Positions 7,577 to 24,229 of a DNA stretch of 64,000 nucleotides are shown piece after piece. The notes under the pieces are model-generated. The model ran no database searches. It had not been told where the DNA came from and saw only the letters and a list, made by a program, of their open reading frames with translations. Position numbers and translations under genes: made by a program. How positions within the stretch are numbered: position 1 is the stretch's first letter; each line of letters starts with the position of its first letter. This DNA is from Fibrobacter sp. (lineage in GTDB: Bacteria > Fibrobacterota > Fibrobacteria > Fibrobacterales > Fibrobacteraceae): assembly GCA_017412605.1 (NCBI GenBank), contig JAFPWY010000011.1, positions 248,001 through 312,000 of the forward strand. The letters run 5' to 3'.

Positions 7577-10500
7577 ATGAAAAATAAGTTTCATGTGTTT
7601 TTCCTGTTTCTTTTGCTCGCGTTTTTAACCTCATCGGCGTGGGCTGACAATTACACGGTTTCGAGCGATGGGGATAGAGTCTTAATTCCCTGTTCGGGGA
7701 CTAACAAAATAACTGTGGCATCTAGCGTGAGCAATTTTATTGTCTATGATGATGGTGGGCCCGATTATGGCTACAGCAATAATTGCAGAGGCACCGTGGT
7801 CCTCTCGGCTCCATCTAACCATTCATTTGTGATTTCTGGCGCTGTGACCGTAGCGGATGGTAATGACACCCTACGTATTTACAATAGCGATATTTCATCG
7901 CATTCTTGGACGGAACCCCCTCTTATGCTGGCACGAAACAGTTCCTCTGAGTTTACTTCTTTATACGGGTCCTCTTCGTATATGAGCGTAACTTTCCGTT
8001 CGAATGGGAGTGGCAGTGCTTCGGGTTTTTCTGTTCGCGTAAATGTCGTTGAAACTTATAAAGTGATTCTCAGTTATCCGGTAACTGCAGGGTCTGTGTC
8101 TGCATGGATCCCTTGGCGAAAAGGACAAGCGTATACCGCTAGTGAAATTTCTTATGCATTCGATTTTGCTGCTGGATCCAGGGTCCCCTTGAAAATTACC
8201 GAGAATGATGGGTTTGTGCTGTCTGCCCTTGATTTGCATATAATAGGAAAATCCGATTTGTTGCCAACTTATTCGTACAATGATACGCTGTCTTTTATTA
8301 TGCCTTCAGACATGCTTTCAGTAAATCCCACTTTTTCTACTATTAGCAGTCTTTCTTCCATCAACATGTTGTGCAGGAAAAAAACGCTCGATATCCCGGC
8401 TAGCGTAAGTTCGTTCAAGATATACGATAATGGGGGCTATTCAAAAAATTATACGAGTTCCTGCGACGCAACTCTCATGCTGAATGCCCCTGAAGGATAC
8501 AAGATTCGATTGACGGGGTCTGTGGCAACGGAACCGAAGTCGAGCGGGAACGGGACTGTTTATGATTATTTGTCCATTTACGATGGAAACACAATTAATT
8601 CGACTCTACTGGATAAGATTTATAGTACGAGCAGTGATTCGGTAGTTGGTATTGGTACAAAAACGAGTACAGGACGAAGCTTGACTCTGTATTTCCATTC
8701 AGATGTAAGCGTTGAAAAAGGTGGTCTTGACTTGAAAGCGGAAATTGTTCCGCAGTACTATACCGTGTCGGTTGCCTCGGTCTCTAATGGATCGATGTCC
8801 CCTGTATCGCAATCCGTTTTGGCTGGCTCTACCGTGTCGTTGACCGCATCGCCTAATAGTGGCTACGAGTTAATTGATTTGAAAGTGGTTTCTGCATCGG
8901 GGAACAATGTTCCTTTTGCGATTTCGGGGAACAAGGCGACCTTTACGATGCCGGGCCAAGATGTGAGAGTGACTCCGACTTTCAGCAAGTATTCTGTTAC
9001 AGTTGATGCTTCTGCCCCGAGTGGATGCTTAACCCCGAATAAGCAATATGCTTTGTCTGGAAGTACTGTGACTTTGACGAGTTCTTGTAATGGATTTGTT
9101 TTGACTGCTGCGACCATTAAAACTGCATCTGGTTCCACGAGCTCTGCGACAGTTTCGGGCAACAAGGTGTCTTTCACAATGCCAAAGAGCAATGTAACTG
9201 TGATTCCGACCTATGTGACCGATACGTATCGTGTTGAAAAAATAGATGTTACGGGAGGACGTCTTTCGGGAAGTGATTCCGCGAAATATGGCTCCAGGGT
9301 GCCTTTGACGGTAACGCTTGATAACGGATACCTTTTGAACGAAGTCAAGGCGACTGCGAAAGGTTCGTCTTTGGCTGTTTCCGGAGGACGTTGGTATAAT
9401 GCTGATTCTAGCAAAAAGGCTTCATTTGTTATGCCATTGTCTGACGTGACGGCTACATTGAGTGTTACAAACAAGTTGACTGCTGAGGATGGCGGCTTGT
9501 TTATCAATATGCCAAAAACAGGAACGATTAATGCGACCATTCCGGCTGAAGTAAAATCGTTCAAGATTTATGATGATGGCGGCAAGGATGGCGACTACAG
9601 TAACAATGGCAATGGAACACTTGTATTGAATGCTCCTTCTGGGTATGTCTTTGAACTGACTGGGACTATAAAGACATATGCAACAAGTCAAAGTCATACG
9701 GAATGTTCGAGTTGGGGATCGTCAGATGGATTTAGTGTATGCAATGCATATTCCACGACAACTACCTATTCTTGCGATACGACAGATAATTTGAGTGTCT
9801 ATAATGGTTCGAGTACCTCGGCGACGGCTATGTTTACCAGAAAGTATGGTTGTACTTCTTCTGGTGGACCTTCATGGACTTCCTTGGGAAAAGTCGTGAG
9901 CAGCAGTAATAAAATGACTATCAACTTCAAGTCTGGATCTAGCGGAACAAATGGCGGCCTTGCTTTGACGGTTACCATGCGGAAACTGGCCTCGGGATTG
10001 GAAGACGACGGTAACGGTGGCAAATATGTGAACATACTTGCCCAACAGTCGATTACTATTCCAAGTGATGTGAAGACGTTCAAGATTTATGATGATGGCG
10101 GTAAGGATGGCGATTACAGTGAAAACGGCAATGGAACGCTTGTGTTGAATGCCCCTTCTGGCTATGTCCTTGAACTGACAGGGAAAATAAAGACCTATTC
10201 AACAAGTCAAACTCATTCGGAATGTTCGAGTTGGGGATCGTCAGATGGATTTAGTGTATGCTATGCATATTCCTCGACCACTACCTATTATTGCGATACG
10301 ACAGATAATTTGAGCGTCTATAATGGTTCGAGTACCTCGGCGACGGCTTTGCTTGCCGGAAAATATGGCTGTACTTCTTCTGATGGAGTTTCTTGGGTTT
10401 CCATAGATAAGATTACGAGTACTAGCAATAAGATGACGCTCAACTTTAAGTCTAATGGAGTTGGGACTAATGCGGGCCTTGATTTGACGGTTACTATGCG

Positions 10501-13500
10501 TAAACTCGCGATGGATTTGGAAACAGATGGTAACGGCGTCAAATATGTGAACATGCTTATGGTGAAAGGGGCGTCTCTATCTATCCCCAAGGGGGTAGAT
10601 TCCGTCAAGATATATGATGATGGGGGCGCGAATGGCTACTATAGTCGCAATGACAATAGTGCGCTTGAGTTGACGGTTCCTTCTGGACATGTCATCGAGT
10701 TGACTGGGAAAATAAAAACATATTCAACAAGTCAAAGTCATACGGAATGTTCGAATTGGGGGTCGTCAGATGGATTTAGTGTATGCTATGCATATTCCAC
10801 GACAACTACCTATTATTGCGATAAGGGCGATACGTTGAACGTTTATGATGGTTCGAGTACCTCAACTACAGTTTTGTTGAACGGGAAATATGGCTGTACT
10901 TCTTCTGGTGGACCTTCATGGATTTCCATAGATAAGGTTACGAGCACTGGCAATAAGATGACGCTCAACTTTAAGTCAAATGCTGATGGGGTTTTGGATG
11001 GCCTTAATTTGACAGCGAAGGTTGTTCCGGTTGATTATGCTGTCCAAGTGAAAGACGCTACAAATGGTAAAATGCAGGCCTCTAAAACTACAGGGGCTCA
11101 TATCGATGACGTCATTTTGCTTGAGGCGAAGCCTGAAGGCGCTTATAAGCTGAAGGATGTCTCTGCCACGGATGCGCTTGGTAATGTCGTTAAAGTCTCT
11201 CAGTATTCATTTAGCGCTGCGGAGTTTACGATGCCTGCAAGTAATGTGATGGTGACTCCGACCTTTACAAATAACCTTACTGCAGCCGGTGGCCTTCATC
11301 TCGATATGCGGAAGAACAAGAGCTTTAACGCAGATGTTCCTGGCGAAATCAAATCGTTCAAAATCTATGATAACGGCGGTAAGGACGGTCTTTATGCGGC
11401 GAGTAGTAATGACACTTTAACTCTTACGGCTCCCGAAGGATACCGGATGATATTGACGGGTTCTGTGATTATGGAAAGAAATTGGGAATACCTATATGTC
11501 TATGATGGTAATAATACCAAGGCGACGAACGTGCTTGAGATGACAGGTTCTGCAAATAGTAGTGACACGACTTCTTCTACTGACATTACCCCTATTACGA
11601 GCTCAGGCCGGTATATGACGTTGCGCTTTCATTCGGATGGCTCTCAACAATATGCGGGGCTCAACTTGACGGTGACGCTTCAACGAGTGTACAAAATTGT
11701 TGTAAATCCTGCTTCGGATGGAGAACTTTTCGGCAAGGATGTTGATACGCTCGGGGCCGTAATCAATCTGACGGCATCCGGAACGGGTTACAATCACTTG
11801 AGCGGTGTAAGCGTTCTTGATAAGAATGGAAAGATAGTCAAGTCGTCCATCTATTCGTTCGACCAGGTGAAGTTTACCTTGCCTGCAAGCGATGTGGCCG
11901 TAACCCCGACATTCACGAGTAAACTTACTGCAGAGGGAGGCCTCCATCTCGATATGTTAAAGAACGGTAATGAAACCGTTTATATTCCTGCAGGGGTCAA
12001 GTCTTTTAGACTGTATGACAATGGTGGTAAAGACAGCGTCTATGAGAGTTATAGCAGCGACACTCTGACGCTTGTTGCGCCTACAGGATATCGATTGAAG
12101 GTGACCGATTCAATTGCCCTTGAAACAGGATACGATTCGCTCTATATCTTTGATGGTCCAAATACTAGTGCAAAGAAATTGTTCGCTCGAAGCAGTGAAA
12201 CTTCTGGCGTGGCATTCGATGTTGGCACCATAACAAGTTCCGGCCCTACTTTGACGTTCTACTTTAAGTCGGATAGGTCTGTTCAAAAAGATGGCTTTGC
12301 CTTGAAGGTTTCTGTCGAAATTGAGAACTATGTTATCACGGTTAAAGATGCTCCGAATGGTCGGGTGCTTTGTGATTCGGCCACTGCGTCTGCGAAATCC
12401 TTTATCCCCCTGTCCTGGGAGGCTACAACGGGGTATTTGCTCAAGGATGTCCTAGTTCTTGATGCTGCGAATAGCAAGGTTCCTGTCAATGGCGGTTGGT
12501 ATACGGGAACTATGGCGGATTTCAGCATGCCCGCAAGCAATGTGACTATCACCCCGACCTTTACGAATGACCTTTCTGCGGATGAACTTTATATTGACAT
12601 GGCTATGCGTAGCACGGTCACGGCTACAATTCCGAAAGAAGTCAGGTCGTTCAGGATTTATGACAATGGCGGCGCGGACGGTGATTATTTGGAAAAGAGC
12701 GTCGATACGTTGATGCTTGTGGCACCTGAGGGAACTAATATTGGTCTGTCCGGCAATATGGTCTTGAATCCGGAAGATTCGCTGTTTGTTTTTGGCGGTA
12801 TGTATGGCCGTATGAAAACATTGTTTGTTGGATCCGGCGAAGGTCGCGTTGGCAACCTGAAAGCAGCCGGCAATTATATGATGATTGTCTTTAGGAGTAA
12901 CAGTCGTAACCCCAATAGGGGTTTCGAGTTGGTCGCGAGTGTGATTAAGCCCGTTCATCTCTTGACCATCGCCGATATCCCGCAGCAGTCCTACACGGGT
13001 GATTCGGTCAAGCCTGCGCTTACAATTACGGACGGTTCCGCCCAGCTTGTGGAGAATAGGGACTACAGGCTTCGCTACATGAACAATGTCAACTCGGGTA
13101 CGGCGACTGTTGGCATCATTGGCAGGGGTAACTACCTCGGCGATACGGCTGTGATGTTTACCATCGGCCCGAAGGTGACCCAGTTCGCGGCGATCAAGCT
13201 TCTCGAAGACGAGAGGGGCATGGGTGTCGCTGTCGATGGTAACTATAATGGTGACGATGCCATCATGATTACGGACAGCATCGAGGTCGACTACGTGGAT
13301 TACAGCCGTAAGTTCTCGACGTCGGGCTTCTCGACAATCGTGCTCCCGTTCGACGTGAACACCTCCAACGTCAATGGCCTTAAGAAGGTGGCTGCGTTCA
13401 GCGAAATCAAGACGAATGACGCTGGCCGCCTTGTCGCGGTGATGTCGCTTGTCTGGAAGGATTCTGTGGGCGTCCCCGATACGACCCTCAAGGCAAATAC

Positions 13501-14011
13501 TCCCTACATGGTTCTGATGAACGGCACGAACTTTGCCGTGGACGGCGGTGTCACTCTCGTTCCGACCGTGGAACCTGTCGTCAGGTCCGGTGACTGGGAA
13601 TTCAGGGGTACGCTCGCGAAGAGAGTCTGGGCGGCCGGCGATTCAGACCTGGGTCACGTTTACGGCTTCTCCGCCGAGGAACGCCCGGAGCAGAACATCA
13701 AGATAGGCCAGTTCGTGAAGGCTGCCGCCGGAGCGTGGATTCGCCCGGGTCGTGCCTACCTGATCAATGTCCCCGAGACGCAGGGAAACCATGTCGGTGC
13801 GGGTAGGCCCGCCATTGCGGCGCTCCCGTCCGTGGTTTTGCCCGAGGATATGGACGTGGTCATCGAGGACAAGGAAGATGGTTCCACGACGTTTGTCGGG
13901 CGCTTCAATGCCCGCACGGGCGAGTTCATCAACATGAAGGCGCGCACGTACGACCTGAAGGGTCGCAATGTGAACGGCTCCAGGACCAAGGGAATGTTTA
14001 TAAGGAAGTAG
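7577..14011 (+). CDS. giant multi-CUB surface protein with InlB-B-like repeats
   Basis: A 2144-aa exported protein, probably an adhesin or surface scaffold. The signal peptide ends near SSAWA. I count eight CUB-like modules, each opening with a (F/V)(K/R/I)(I/L)YD(D/N)GG motif followed by an L.L.AP.GY strand, a (L)(S/N)VY(D/N)G strand and an LTVT-type final strand. Between and before them are seven segments ending F(T/S)MP.S(N/D)V.VTPTF, the signature of divergent InlB B-like repeats. Modules 3-5 (about residues 655-1145) are nearly identical and carry an extra Cys-rich loop (TECSSWGSSDGFSVC). A strand-rich segment at about 1808-1862 (SYTGDSVKPALTI) resembles MBG domains. The protein ends YDLKGRNVNGSRTKGMFIRK, a short sorting-like tail. 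Base composition changes near 12950. A 53-aa peptide gene follows after 3 nt. Confidence 0.85.
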   Translation: MKNKFHVFFLFLLLAFLTSSAWADNYTVSSDGDRVLIPCSGTNKITVASSVSNFIVYDDGGPDYGYSNNCRGTVVLSAPSNHSFVISGAVTVADGNDTLRIYNSDISSHSWTEPPLMLARNSSSEFTSLYGSSSYMSVTFRSNGSGSASGFSVRVNVVETYKVILSYPVTAGSVSAWIPWRKGQAYTASEISYAFDFAAGSRVPLKITENDGFVLSALDLHIIGKSDLLPTYSYNDTLSFIMPSDMLSVNPTFSTISSLSSINMLCRKKTLDIPASVSSFKIYDNGGYSKNYTSSCDATLMLNAPEGYKIRLTGSVATEPKSSGNGTVYDYLSIYDGNTINSTLLDKIYSTSSDSVVGIGTKTSTGRSLTLYFHSDVSVEKGGLDLKAEIVPQYYTVSVASVSNGSMSPVSQSVLAGSTVSLTASPNSGYELIDLKVVSASGNNVPFAISGNKATFTMPGQDVRVTPTFSKYSVTVDASAPSGCLTPNKQYALSGSTVTLTSSCNGFVLTAATIKTASGSTSSATVSGNKVSFTMPKSNVTVIPTYVTDTYRVEKIDVTGGRLSGSDSAKYGSRVPLTVTLDNGYLLNEVKATAKGSSLAVSGGRWYNADSSKKASFVMPLSDVTATLSVTNKLTAEDGGLFINMPKTGTINATIPAEVKSFKIYDDGGKDGDYSNNGNGTLVLNAPSGYVFELTGTIKTYATSQSHTECSSWGSSDGFSVCNAYSTTTTYSCDTTDNLSVYNGSSTSATAMFTRKYGCTSSGGPSWTSLGKVVSSSNKMTINFKSGSSGTNGGLALTVTMRKLASGLEDDGNGGKYVNILAQQSITIPSDVKTFKIYDDGGKDGDYSENGNGTLVLNAPSGYVLELTGKIKTYSTSQTHSECSSWGSSDGFSVCYAYSSTTTYYCDTTDNLSVYNGSSTSATALLAGKYGCTSSDGVSWVSIDKITSTSNKMTLNFKSNGVGTNAGLDLTVTMRKLAMDLETDGNGVKYVNMLMVKGASLSIPKGVDSVKIYDDGGANGYYSRNDNSALELTVPSGHVIELTGKIKTYSTSQSHTECSNWGSSDGFSVCYAYSTTTTYYCDKGDTLNVYDGSSTSTTVLLNGKYGCTSSGGPSWISIDKVTSTGNKMTLNFKSNADGVLDGLNLTAKVVPVDYAVQVKDATNGKMQASKTTGAHIDDVILLEAKPEGAYKLKDVSATDALGNVVKVSQYSFSAAEFTMPASNVMVTPTFTNNLTAAGGLHLDMRKNKSFNADVPGEIKSFKIYDNGGKDGLYAASSNDTLTLTAPEGYRMILTGSVIMERNWEYLYVYDGNNTKATNVLEMTGSANSSDTTSSTDITPITSSGRYMTLRFHSDGSQQYAGLNLTVTLQRVYKIVVNPASDGELFGKDVDTLGAVINLTASGTGYNHLSGVSVLDKNGKIVKSSIYSFDQVKFTLPASDVAVTPTFTSKLTAEGGLHLDMLKNGNETVYIPAGVKSFRLYDNGGKDSVYESYSSDTLTLVAPTGYRLKVTDSIALETGYDSLYIFDGPNTSAKKLFARSSETSGVAFDVGTITSSGPTLTFYFKSDRSVQKDGFALKVSVEIENYVITVKDAPNGRVLCDSATASAKSFIPLSWEATTGYLLKDVLVLDAANSKVPVNGGWYTGTMADFSMPASNVTITPTFTNDLSADELYIDMAMRSTVTATIPKEVRSFRIYDNGGADGDYLEKSVDTLMLVAPEGTNIGLSGNMVLNPEDSLFVFGGMYGRMKTLFVGSGEGRVGNLKAAGNYMMIVFRSNSRNPNRGFELVASVIKPVHLLTIADIPQQSYTGDSVKPALTITDGSAQLVENRDYRLRYMNNVNSGTATVGIIGRGNYLGDTAVMFTIGPKVTQFAAIKLLEDERGMGVAVDGNYNGDDAIMITDSIEVDYVDYSRKFSTSGFSTIVLPFDVNTSNVNGLKKVAAFSEIKTNDAGRLVAVMSLVWKDSVGVPDTTLKANTPYMVLMNGTNFAVDGGVTLVPTVEPVVRSGDWEFRGTLAKRVWAAGDSDLGHVYGFSAEERPEQNIKIGQFVKAAAGAWIRPGRAYLINVPETQGNHVGAGRPAIAALPSVVLPEDMDVVIEDKEDGSTTFVGRFNARTGEFINMKARTYDLKGRNVNGSRTKGMFIRK
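9540..11010 (+). repeat. three tandem near-identical CUB modules (519-525 bp period)
   Basis: The same DNA block recurs with anchors at 9682, 10201 and 10726, giving periods of 519 and 525 bp (173 and 175 codons). Long stretches are identical, including the Cys-rich loop. This indicates recent in-frame duplication and a likely hotspot for copy-number change. Confidence 0.9.
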
Positions 14012-14014
14012 AGT

Positions 14015-14176
14015 ATGTTTAAAGATGAAGCTATGAAAAGTGATATCTGCAAGAAGGCGTATGTCGCACCCCAGATGACCGTTGTTGAATGCCGTGGGCC
14101 GAATTTGCTTTCGGGTAGCGATGTGTTTGGTCTTGATGACGATAAAACTCCGGATTGCGATTGTGAATTCCAGTAA
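14015..14176 (+). CDS. 53-aa conserved-pattern peptide downstream of the CUB protein
   Basis: The ATG at 14015 lies 3 nt after the stop of the giant gene, with GGAAG overlapping that gene's end as a ribosome binding site. The peptide begins MFKDEAMKSDICKKAYVAPQ; a second in-frame ATG is codon 7. Its core YVAPQMTVVE...NLLSGSD resembles a family of tiny Bacteroidota proteins with the pattern YxxPxxxVVE...LLxxSG that I recall lying next to large repeat-rich surface proteins. The tail is acidic with a CDC motif near the end (DDDKTPDCDCEFQ). There is no signal peptide. The LLSGS step looks like a leader/core boundary but this is unproven. Translational coupling to the giant gene is likely. Function unknown. 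Confidence 0.75.
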   Translation: MFKDEAMKSDICKKAYVAPQMTVVECRGPNLLSGSDVFGLDDDKTPDCDCEFQ

Positions 14177-14206
14177 TTCGCGTTAATCATTCCCGTGCAA
14201 AGATTT

Positions 14207-14236
14207 AAAGCCCCGCGTAAAAACGGGGCTTTAATC
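14207..14236 (+). terminator. hairpin after the 53-aa peptide gene
   Basis: AAAGCCCCG and CGGGGCTTT form a 9-bp stem around an 8-nt loop. The 3' T-run is short, so termination may be weak. Confidence 0.7.
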
Positions 14237-19861: not shown

Positions 19862-22800
19862 ATGAAAGTAAAATCCATTTTGTTATTCATTTGGGGATTC
19901 CTGACGGCGGGATCCGTTTTTGCACAAGAGCAGGATGCTGGCTTTGTCAACCTCTATGACGAAGGTAATGGCAACGCCTACATTTCGAGAACTGCCGACT
20001 CTTGCGGTACAGCAGCAAAGCCCCCTGTAGGATATTCGTTTTTCCCGTTTGGCTCGGTCCCCGTTTTGACTGGGACGTGTACGGGCGCACATTTGATCGA
20101 TTCGTCCCACGCCGCTGCAGTCCTGGATTCCCTGTTGAATGCGGATTGGAAACCCGTCTTAAACGATACCCTGAACAAGACGACGGGAAAGATTACCTTT
20201 TTGACGGATTTTAATTTTGCGCAGTATAAGGTGGATGGAACGGACACCACCTGTCTTGTCAACCACACTCCACTCACGTTCAAGGCCGAATACGGCGAAA
20301 TCGACGGGAACCACCATCTCATCGAAAATGTTTGCTATTTCAAGGACATCGACTATTCGGTAGAGAGCCTTTCCGATACGGTCGGCCTTTTCAAGCGTCT
20401 TGATTCGGTCAACGTCCATTACCTGAAGCTTAAAAATTTTCATTTTCGTGTAATGGCCTCCAAGACGCAGTCGGTCCCGACGAAGGATGCGTCGTTCTTC
20501 GGCCCTGTGGGCGCCATGGCTGGCGTGATGATCAATTCGCTGATTTATCAGGATACCTTGATTGACGTTACCGTTTCGGCTCCCATGGCGGGGGGATTTG
20601 TCGGCTATGCGAAAAACAGTACCATCCAGTGGGTATACAGCGACGATGACCTGAAAGTCTACAACCAAGTGGACTTGAACGGCGCGAATTATTATGCGGC
20701 GAGCCGCACTTCCGGTTGGGGGGGCGAATATCACGCCTTCATCGGTGGCCTGGTTGGCTATGCGGTGGATCTCGAAGTGTATGATATCAATGTGATTGCC
20801 CGGGTCGAGAACCTGTCTGAAGATACGTCTACTGTCGTAGGCGGACTTGTGGGCATGTATGCGCTTTCCAAGAAGGCGGATACTCAGGAAAATCGGCTTG
20901 CTATGAAGATTGACAAGGTGGTTATGCCTCAAAAAACCGAGAAGACCTATACCAAGATCAGTGGCGGTAAGTCGATGGGTGGCCTCGTCGGCGAGGCGGC
21001 TATCTACAAGAACGAAGTCAATGAAGCTATGGACCTGTCCATTACGAATGTGGATTTCAATGGTTCCATTTCCAAATCGAAAGGTTCGGACGTGCATGCC
21101 GGCGGCTTGGTTGGCCGCAGCGCCGTTGATGGAGGCTCTATCGTAAAGATCGAGAATGCCTTGGTTCAACTCACCATGAAGGACTCTCTCTCGAATGCCG
21201 GGTTCTATGAATATTCTGTGGGAGGCCTGATTGGCGAAGAGACTTGCGTGTACACAAGGAATACCGTGACGGCCGAATCGTTTGTCTCTATCAGGAATTC
21301 AAGAACCAGTGGTTCCCTTACGGTGGCGAAAAAGGCTGATGCCGAGAATGTGAGCGCCAATGTATTCATGGGCGGTCTGGCTGGCCGTGCTTGTCTTGCA
21401 CGTAATGCGGACGCTCTGTCGGGGAATTCATCGTCGATGGAGATGAAGGTGGCCGTGAAAGGCCTGCGCGGACATTCTGTCGGAGGTAGCGAGATTGCAT
21501 CCATCGATTCCTTGATGGTGGGTGGCTTTGTCGGCAAGGCCGTGACGCGGCCCAATACGAGTGGATCCTATACCAATGGGGATTCCGTCCTGACGGTTCG
21601 CAATGGGCTGTTTACAGGAACGATTGAAGTAACGGATAGCCTGAATCTAGTCCGCATGGGAGGCATCATTGGCTCGTTTGCCGACAATGCCGGTATGCTG
21701 TATGTTGCCTTTGACAATATCCGGGTGAATAATATAGGCGTGATGACCCTCAATCCCAAAGCGGGGGCGGCATTCCCGGTGCAGGGCTCTGCGGCCGTGG
21801 GCGGAATTTGCGGCTATTGCATCATGCCGAATAAAGTCGACCATGTCTGGGTTAGAGGTGCTATCAAAGTACAAGGTGATTTTTCCCAGGCGGACTCCCT
21901 GTTCGTGGGCGGCGTGTTTGGTGGCTTGCTCAGCAGCAAGGACTTTGTCATGCAGAATGCGTACTACATTGGTTCGATGAGTGTTCCCGGCAGTACGCCT
22001 TCGGATAACATCTACGGAGGTTACCTGGCAGGAAAGCTCACGTTGAACGGCACGAAGGTTCTTAGAAAGATTGTTTCCACATACCATAATGGCGATGACG
22101 ACCTGGACGCCTTCGGCTTGTTCGAGGGGGGCAACGCCCGTTACCTGCCGTCGGCGCAGGGGGATGACTGGAGCCTGATCGAGAACGAGTGCAGCGGCAA
22201 GTCCAAGTTGAACGGAAACATGACGTGCTGGGATGTCCGTTACAACGTACGTAACGGCGATGCGGAAAACACAAACGAGAATTTCAATGGTGTAAAGACG
22301 GTCGCTTCCATGAAGACGCCCGAGTTTGCCGACTTCTTGAATGCTCCGTTTGCAGTGGAGGGCAAGGCATATTGGGGATACAAGGCTGCCGAGAACGGTG
22401 GCTTCCCGTACCTTCTTGAGGTGCCTGCCGTCGTCATTCTGCCGTCATCGTCGTCCGAGGCTGTTTCCAGTTCTTCGGAACCGCAGTCGAGCTCTAGCTC
22501 GCAGCTTCCACCTCCGCCAGAGAGTTCCTGCTCGCTGTCTCCTCCTTCGGAAAGTTCCAGTTCGTTCTGGTGGCCCATACCGGCAAGTTCCAGCTCGCTG
22601 CTTCCGCCTCCGCCGGAGAGCTCCAGCTCCCTGTTTGTCCCGTCCAGCTCTTCTGAACTCGTGCCGGTCGTCTTTAGCTCTTCCGAGCAGCCGCTGCCCG
22701 AATCTTCCTCCTCGTTTGTGCTGCCCATGTCTAGCAGCGAACCGGTGATTGTCGTTATCCCGACTCCCGAGATCGAGTCGCACCGTATAGAATGGGCGGG

Positions 22801-24229
22801 TTCCATGGCTAGGCTCAAGTTCAATGCCAGCGTGGATTCCTTGGCGGGCAAGGTCTCCGTATCGGTGCGTGTGTGGGCCGGCGGTTCCGTCGTTGTCGAT
22901 ACGCTGCTGCTTGATTCCGTGCCTGGTTCCGTGCGCGGCGCATCCGTGACTTTTGCAGTGTCTTCCGGCGATTCTGTTGCCTACGAGATTGTTCTGCAGG
23001 GCGATTCCGTCTCCGCCTTCGCCAATGGGGGTGCCAAGGAAGTTCAGCCTGTCCGGTCGAGCCGCTGGCAGATGGTTTCGCTCGCCGATGTCGACCTCCG
23101 CAAGCTCCACCTGGACAAGTACCATGTGCTCTACCGCTGGGATGAGTCACTTTCTGTGGGCGACTACTTGCAGTACCGCGCCTATTCCCGCTCGGACGAG
23201 GTTGCCGCGACCGATGGTTACTGGTATGGTTCGTATGATGGCGTTCCCCTGAAGCGCAAGGCTGGCAAGTATGTCGAAGGTGCCGAAATTGTATGGAACG
23301 TCGACAGCATCCATAGCGGCTGGAACATGGTGGCTAACCCCTACAGCTGGGTGGTTGACCTGTCCGCGATTAAAGACTCCGGAGTCGATGTGTGGAGCTG
23401 GAACGATGAGTCCGGCGAATACGATATCCCGACGGAGCTGAAACCCTACGAAGCAATCTGGCTGAATGCTTCCGGCCCGCAGACGATCAAGTTCCCTGCC
23501 AAGCCCAAGTTTGTGAAGGGCGAGACAAAGGCCCTCGCGAAGGCCTCCTCGCTCAAGAGGTCGTCCGACGGCTGGACGGTCCGTGCCATCTTGTCTGACA
23601 AAAACGGCAAGAAGGATTCCTGGAACATGTTCGGTACGAGCAGCAAGGTGTCTACGAGCTCCGAGCCGCCTTCCGGAATGGGAGACCACGTGTCGCTGGC
23701 GATCGTCGAGTCGGGTCGCGCTCTCGCCAGGTCGTTCCGCCCTGCCGAAGAAGAGATGGAATGGACGCTGAGCCTCTCCGCCTCTAGTGAAAGGACCGCC
23801 TATCTCCAGTTGGATGGCATCGACGATGTCAATGCGACGGGCAAAAAGGTGTTCGTGACGGTTGACGGCAAGACGGTCGAGATGAAGGACGGCAAGAAGA
23901 TTTCCGTGAAGGTGGGATCCCTCAAGAAGACGGCGGTTGTCCGCGTGGCCCCGCATGCCAAGTCCGAGGTGGAATACGCACTCAAGGATGTCCGCACTTT
24001 CCGGAACGGCAGTTCGCTCGATGTCCAGTTCGTTGTGAGCAATGGGCTTGCGGGCTCGAATGCGAAGGTCGAACTGGTGGATCTATCCGGAAAGGTGGTG
24101 GCCTCGCTTTCGAGGACCTCGTTGGCCGGATTGAACAACGTGAGGTTCCCTGCTCTCGAAAGTGGCCTATACGTCCTCAGAATCCGTTCCGGGAGCCAGA
24201 TTGCCGTCAAGAAAGTCGTCTTGCGGTAA
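19862..24229 (+). CDS. surface protein with GLUG-like repeats, Ser/Pro linker and T9SS-like tail
   Basis: 1455 aa with a signal peptide (cut near SVFA-QEQ). Residues about 200-745 hold repeated (V/M)GG(L/F)(V/I)G segments of the GLUG type, found in adhesins and IgA-peptidase-like proteins, which suggest a beta-solenoid. A linker at about 860-966 alternates Ser runs with PPPPESS blocks. A module at about 1066-1376 (starting WQMVSLADVD) is shared with the next gene. The last 75 residues (LDVQFVVSNG...VVLR) look like a T9SS sorting domain. Likely exported and displayed on the cell surface. No enzymatic motif is seen; a role in attachment to fibre is inference. Confidence 0.8.
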   Translation: MKVKSILLFIWGFLTAGSVFAQEQDAGFVNLYDEGNGNAYISRTADSCGTAAKPPVGYSFFPFGSVPVLTGTCTGAHLIDSSHAAAVLDSLLNADWKPVLNDTLNKTTGKITFLTDFNFAQYKVDGTDTTCLVNHTPLTFKAEYGEIDGNHHLIENVCYFKDIDYSVESLSDTVGLFKRLDSVNVHYLKLKNFHFRVMASKTQSVPTKDASFFGPVGAMAGVMINSLIYQDTLIDVTVSAPMAGGFVGYAKNSTIQWVYSDDDLKVYNQVDLNGANYYAASRTSGWGGEYHAFIGGLVGYAVDLEVYDINVIARVENLSEDTSTVVGGLVGMYALSKKADTQENRLAMKIDKVVMPQKTEKTYTKISGGKSMGGLVGEAAIYKNEVNEAMDLSITNVDFNGSISKSKGSDVHAGGLVGRSAVDGGSIVKIENALVQLTMKDSLSNAGFYEYSVGGLIGEETCVYTRNTVTAESFVSIRNSRTSGSLTVAKKADAENVSANVFMGGLAGRACLARNADALSGNSSSMEMKVAVKGLRGHSVGGSEIASIDSLMVGGFVGKAVTRPNTSGSYTNGDSVLTVRNGLFTGTIEVTDSLNLVRMGGIIGSFADNAGMLYVAFDNIRVNNIGVMTLNPKAGAAFPVQGSAAVGGICGYCIMPNKVDHVWVRGAIKVQGDFSQADSLFVGGVFGGLLSSKDFVMQNAYYIGSMSVPGSTPSDNIYGGYLAGKLTLNGTKVLRKIVSTYHNGDDDLDAFGLFEGGNARYLPSAQGDDWSLIENECSGKSKLNGNMTCWDVRYNVRNGDAENTNENFNGVKTVASMKTPEFADFLNAPFAVEGKAYWGYKAAENGGFPYLLEVPAVVILPSSSSEAVSSSSEPQSSSSSQLPPPPESSCSLSPPSESSSSFWWPIPASSSSLLPPPPESSSSLFVPSSSSELVPVVFSSSEQPLPESSSSFVLPMSSSEPVIVVIPTPEIESHRIEWAGSMARLKFNASVDSLAGKVSVSVRVWAGGSVVVDTLLLDSVPGSVRGASVTFAVSSGDSVAYEIVLQGDSVSAFANGGAKEVQPVRSSRWQMVSLADVDLRKLHLDKYHVLYRWDESLSVGDYLQYRAYSRSDEVAATDGYWYGSYDGVPLKRKAGKYVEGAEIVWNVDSIHSGWNMVANPYSWVVDLSAIKDSGVDVWSWNDESGEYDIPTELKPYEAIWLNASGPQTIKFPAKPKFVKGETKALAKASSLKRSSDGWTVRAILSDKNGKKDSWNMFGTSSKVSTSSEPPSGMGDHVSLAIVESGRALARSFRPAEEEMEWTLSLSASSERTAYLQLDGIDDVNATGKKVFVTVDGKTVEMKDGKKISVKVGSLKKTAVVRVAPHAKSEVEYALKDVRTFRNGSSLDVQFVVSNGLAGSNAKVELVDLSGKVVASLSRTSLAGLNNVRFPALESGLYVLRIRSGSQIAVKKVVLR

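Follow-up and report, generated by a model that had tools for sequence, protein, structure and literature searches.

The window, a stretch of 64,000 nt from a Fibrobacter sp. contig, carries a two-gene unit in which a gene for a 2144-aa surface protein is followed, 3 nt after its stop codon (14009-14011), by a 53-aa open reading frame (Table 1). The first-pass annotation had placed both genes in one operon, and the coordinates, the Shine-Dalgarno match in front of the small gene and the hairpin downstream of it agree with this. The 53-aa protein has no match in Pfam or NCBIfam, and orthologues with 72% and 58% identity occupy the same place among the same neighbours in two related genomes. When these are compared, the small protein proves conserved over its N-terminal half and fast-diverging over its C-terminal half; against the more distant (58%) orthologue dN/dS is ~0.3. 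The same-place orthologues, this dN/dS and the 147-member census described below, with 133 members behind tail genes, confirm that the 53-aa ORF is real beyond chance.

The large protein ends in a domain of ~273 aa which is common to the partners of other members of the small-gene family, and the shared C-terminal tail of these upstream partners ends in DLKGRxxNxKPxxKGxYxxxGKKVIIK. A Pfam search with the 273-aa domain gave no match, its AlphaFold model is of moderate quality (pLDDT 73) and poor at the last motif, and a fold search of the PDB with this model returned no significant match. With the C-terminal sorting domains of T9SS substrates (PF18962/TIGR04183) the tail shares a short C-terminal D-x-x-G-R element and its occurrence on secreted surface proteins in T9SS genomes, but it matches neither family in Pfam and NCBIfam, it gives no profile match to the canonical T9SS tail of this window, and it vanishes together with the kinase cluster described below while the T9SS remains. 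A relationship of the tail to T9SS sorting domains was not detected by family search, profile comparison or fold search, the last with a model that is weak exactly at the terminal motif, and the tail may yet be a divergent T9SS domain. A 1455-aa protein encoded at positions 19862-24229 of the window bears a canonical Por_Secre_tail (PF18962), and thus two types of surface-protein tail are found in one genome. Inside the large gene, a 300-nt stretch is present three times at 9536-10879 (79-89% identical, with spacings of 519 and 525 nt), an amplification within the CUB region at which the length of the gene might vary.

When 111 genomes from the host's taxonomic family were searched at the protein level, 52 gave matches to the small protein, nearly all of them from the same genus. 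A search-based census of 28 near-complete genomes of the genus counted 147 small genes, 123 tail genes and 51 NTP_transf_5 genes. In 133 of 147 cases the small gene follows a tail gene on the same strand at a distance of no more than 700 nt, a placement with a chance of ~0.0004 per gene; 104 of the 123 tail genes have a small-gene neighbour, and in about 22 cases an NTP_transf_5 gene comes directly after a tail/small-gene pair. The host genome itself has five small genes, four of which stand behind tail genes, and a tailed protein is encoded just upstream of 25 of the 32 Prevotella-type small genes inspected. The first-pass annotation had pointed to very small Bacteroidota proteins encoded beside large ones whose short C-terminal tails resemble each other, and had proposed a family search with tabulation of the neighbours in Fibrobacter and Prevotella; both genera bear this pattern out. 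Its giant CUB partner is correct for this locus (Table 1) and does not hold for partners in general, which have assorted domains and range from ~300 to >2000 aa. At some loci (L048, L009, L015, L018, L019, L021, L025 and L026) two small genes with different cores are found in tandem behind one tail gene. No tail gene was detected for 14 of the 147 small genes in the 28 genomes. One such orphan (L034 1507-1629; G000:C11:27089) keeps its place in L016 and L030 as well, where it adjoins the end of a gene identified by eye as coding for an MqnC-like radical SAM protein. Identities among small proteins correlate with those among tails (Mantel r 0.51-0.53, with a drop to 0.23 among distant pairs), a result that we do not take as proof of interaction because it is confounded by shared ancestry.

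Members of the family follow the pattern KKxYxAPxMxVVE..LLxGS, behind which comes a variable acidic tail, and K14, Y16 and P19 are invariant in an alignment of 34 members. Residue frequencies were obtained from 147 distinct sequences from fetched loci, a set that differs from the 147 census genes. In these sequences Lys is present two residues before the Tyr in 93%, the Tyr in 93%, Pro at +3 in 97%, Met at +5 in 82% (a hydrophobic position) and Leu at +16, within the LL motif, in 84%. Counting from the Tyr, 146 of the 147 have a Ser at positions +16 to +23, most commonly at +20 (77%), Ser making up 4.3% of the residues behind; in the window peptide it is at +19. The acidic, CDC-containing tail pointed out in the first pass is partly a family trait: the C-terminal part is acidic (27% D+E, 4% K+R), and the CDC is not conserved, Cys occurring in only some members.

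Loci bearing a pair often run on into genes for NTP_transf_5, an HprK-like kinase, an S24/S26-like peptidase, PqqD and an ABC exporter, and several such clusters sit within polysaccharide loci. The host genome has a complete operon of this kind outside the window, at G000:C1, with overlapping genes on one strand. Its kinase has weak matches to Hpr_kinase_C and HprK_rel_A/B, all below the curated cut-offs, with a near-invariant P-loop GKSGTGKST. The best NCBIfam matches of the peptidase, also below cut-off, are to archaeal-type and bacterial SPase I. Over 76 loci the SipW-type residues Ser29 and His67 are present in 100% and 97%, the third, acidic residue may be D82 or E89, and D93 of LppS, the LPP peptidase introduced below, has no clear counterpart. 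The RRE is nearest by sequence to lasso RREs, with a profile match to TfuB1 (6jx3, E 5e-4), and the top six PDB matches of its model (pLDDT 90) are all lasso B1-leader complexes (5v1u, 5v1v, 6jx3; TM ~0.75). A single-sequence search of the PDB with this RRE found nothing at E 0.1, and its sequence-level match to LppB (9x8z) was not significant (E 0.7-1). A DUF5662 protein is encoded near the cluster in two genomes (L053:4840-5376 and L048:5484-6020).

A frame for these observations is provided by Popov et al. (2026), who described the linear polyphosphorylated peptides (LPP RiPPs) and reported this type to be confined to Bacillota (PMC13381572). Their core set consists of SpI (SipW-like), a discrete RRE, an HprK-like kinase, an NTP transferase and an MsbA-like transporter, and there are 1-3 precursors of 35-200 aa with a constant N-terminus (PMC13381572). 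Residues K-18, Y-16 and P-13 of the precursor LppA contact LppB in the crystal, LppK polyphosphorylates LppA at S3 and LppS cleaves after T-1; the clusters are located in capsular polysaccharide loci, and the biological role of the peptides is stated to be unknown (PMC13381572).

Table 1. Features of the two-gene unit in the window and of the machinery operon of the host genome (locus L053).
Feature	Position	Strand	Remarks
2144-aa surface protein gene	7577..14011	+	Opens the unit; N-terminus resembling a signal peptide; CUB (PF00431, E 1e-21), Flg_new_2/InlB-B repeats
~273-aa C-terminal domain of the large protein	13190..14008	+	Common to partners of other family members
Conserved terminal tail RTGEFxxxxxxYDLKGRxxxxxxxKGxxxxK	13850..14008	+	Profile A2, E 2e-17
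Shine-Dalgarno-like AAGGAAG	14002..14008	+	Lies within the final codons of the large gene, 6 nt upstream of the ATG; kept in two relatives
53-aa ORF, candidate precursor of an LPP-like RiPP	14015..14176	+	MFKDEAMKSDICKKAYVAPQMTVVECRGPNLLSGSDVFGLDDDKTPDCDCEFQ
Predicted leader, residues 1-32	14015..14110	+	K14, Y16 and P19 form the KxYxxP RRE-binding element; spacing as in LppA K-18/Y-16/P-13
Predicted core, 21 residues	14111..14173	+	SGSDVFGLDDDKTPDCDCEFQ; predicted cut after L32, by analogy with LppA T-1
Ser35 codon, predicted (poly)phosphorylation site	14117..14119	+	Ser position across relatives; LppA S3
Intrinsic-terminator-like hairpin	14205..14234	+	Closes the two-gene unit
Tail protein gene, machinery operon	L053:9746-13594		
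NTP_transf_5, machinery operon	L053:8620-9744		PF14907, 1e-40
HprK-like kinase, machinery operon	L053:7691-8623		Weak matches
S24/S26-like (SipW-like) peptidase, machinery operon	L053, ending 7264		Weak matches
PqqD-type RRE, machinery operon	L053:6998-7267		PF05402, 8e-13
MsbA-like ABC exporter, machinery operon	L053:5373-7001		ABC_membrane + ABC_tran

The kinase and the small genes go together across genomes. Both are present in 26 of the 28 genomes of the genus and both are missing from the other two (G018 and G045), and the kinase is single-copy in each of the 26. T9SS SprA was found in all 60 of 60 genomes of the host's taxonomic family, those free of small genes included. A kinase scan of public genomes returned Fibrobacter and rumen Prevotella/Bacteroidales, and small genes are present in 13 of 15 kinase-bearing Prevotella-type genomes, with up to 28 matches in one. 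When 119 Bacteroidia genomes were searched with the small-gene profile, a match was obtained only in the kinase-bearing centre genome and in 0 of the 118 others. In two genomes the kinase gene was matched in two pieces (G020:C2:368306-369158 and G055:C5:336941-337924) and is perhaps frameshifted; one of these, G055, has one small gene left.

To the gene, its family, the pairing, the machinery and their co-occurrence we would put the following reading, with a probability of about 0.8: the product of the 53-aa gene is a RiPP precursor, and the RiPP made from it is linear, RRE-dependent and phosphorylated and works in the manner of the LPP RiPPs found in Bacillota. A PqqD-type RRE encoded elsewhere in the genome would bind the KxYxxP element of the leader, as its fold and the motif suggest. 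The HprK-like kinase, by analogy with LppK, would phosphorylate the conserved Ser of LLxxS (Ser35 here), and the NTP_transf_5 protein may add a sugar to the phosphate. The SipW-like peptidase would take the leader off, probably after LL (L32 here), and the MsbA-like ABC protein would export the acidic 21-residue core, the mature peptide presumably acting together with its partner on the cell surface. A single machinery locus would serve several precursors whose genes are dispersed through the genome, every one of them in a transcription unit with the gene of a secreted tailed protein; processing in trans is assumed because the machinery locus of the host genome holds no small gene and only 20 of the 147 small genes in the 28 genomes lie within 5 kb of the kinase gene. 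The leader/core layout and the RiPP-like precursor, the latter one of several options in the first-pass annotation, are both supported by the associated machinery, and its statement that no such system had been described is superseded by the LPP RiPPs of Bacillota (PMC13381572).

Three other explanations deserve attention. The small protein may be an unprocessed helper of the tailed protein, a chaperone or secretion partner and no RiPP at all, with the RRE/kinase cluster only loosely connected to it. The pairing with tailed proteins is indeed near-obligate and the small proteins diverge in step with the tails, shared phylogeny contributing to the latter, but the presence of small genes follows the kinase cluster and not the secretion system, 14 of them do without a tail gene, the C-terminal half diverges fast, as a core does, and the leader retains the RRE-binding element; we regard such a helper as unlikely. 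Less probable still is that the gene codes for the precursor of a different kind of RRE-dependent RiPP, such as a lasso peptide whose cyclase is encoded elsewhere. The YxxP leader, the lasso-type RRE, the kinase and the nucleotidyltransferase are common to paeninodin/pseudomycoidin clusters, whereas macrolactam synthetase and B2 protease are absent among the cluster neighbours examined and inspection of the predicted cores shows no constant Gly1/Ala1 with an Asp/Glu at 7-9 that could form the ring. Finally, that the ORF has no peptide function and is a leader, a regulatory ORF or a remnant of translational coupling, as its shortness and its position directly behind a large gene might suggest, is very improbable in view of its location after and not before its partner, the dN/dS of ~0.3, the conservation at the amino-acid level across two phyla and the near-invariance of K, Y, P and S.

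If the 53-aa gene is such an LPP-like precursor, the main possibilities for the role of the peptide are that it anchors the tailed surface protein, stabilises it or switches it. We tentatively propose, as a speculative extension, that the tailed protein and the co-transcribed phosphorylated (perhaps phospho-glycosylated) peptide constitute a functional unit and that the RiPP pathway anchors or switches many surface proteins genome-wide; for example, the peptide could dock on the tail domain or link it to surface polysaccharide. The range of a RiPP type that was Bacillota-restricted in its 2026 description would now extend to two dominant groups of rumen bacteria, with an unusual genome layout in which one enzyme set goes with many dispersed precursors. 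Each of these precursors has as its partner a secreted surface protein, and these partners have an unclassified C-terminal domain in common. This pairing supplies a concrete and testable partner for LPP-type peptides, and many short uncharacterised ORFs of Fibrobacter and Prevotella genomes gain meaning. In a term search of a 2023 survey of Bacteroidales RiPPs no such cluster was found.

Among known systems, the phosphorylated lasso peptides paeninodin and pseudomycoidin share with the present family the PqqD-type RRE, HprK-like kinase, NTP transferase, ABC exporter and Y/WxxP leader, and differ from it in the macrolactam synthetase/B2 protease, not found nearby here, and in the ring residues, which are not constant in the cores of the present family. 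The cluster on plasmid pNP243 of Butyrivibrio fibrisolvens (WAA20_RS20635-20655), which all four enzyme profiles pick up, likewise has HprK-like, PqqD and S24/S26 peptidase genes in a polysaccharide locus, but it belongs to Bacillota, its core is Cys-rich and there is no tailed surface protein. Between its HprK-like and PqqD genes (L238 7449-7622) lies a gene for a Cys-rich 57-aa KKAYVKPEL peptide, which is likely another precursor.

The closest counterpart is the lpp system of Paenibacillus alginolyticus. Four of the five core genes are the same and the fifth, for the peptidase, probably so, both systems are associated with polysaccharide loci, and in both the precursors are short, with a constant N-terminus, a variable C-terminus, a KxYxxP leader at the spacing of the LppA-LppB contacts and a Ser ~18-20 residues past the Tyr. 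The extended LPP consensus YxxPxVLxHQxIxFETxxS is not kept in the present family, YxxP, the Ser and, in a subset, HQ being shared and FET being absent; Met stands after YxxPx where LPP has Val, and LLxxS where LPP has FETxxS. New with respect to LPP are the phyla (Fibrobacterota/Bacteroidota instead of Bacillota), the number of precursors (1-11 in a Fibrobacter genome), most of which lie apart from the machinery, and their pairing with tailed surface proteins, which suggests the rewiring, for use at the cell surface, of a system hitherto known from Bacillota alone. Since the agreement with LPP covers the gene set and the spacing of the KxYxxP element, while the Ser is mostly at +20 and not at +18 and LL replaces FET, we refer to the Fibrobacter/Prevotella system as LPP-like and do not file it as a member of LPP.
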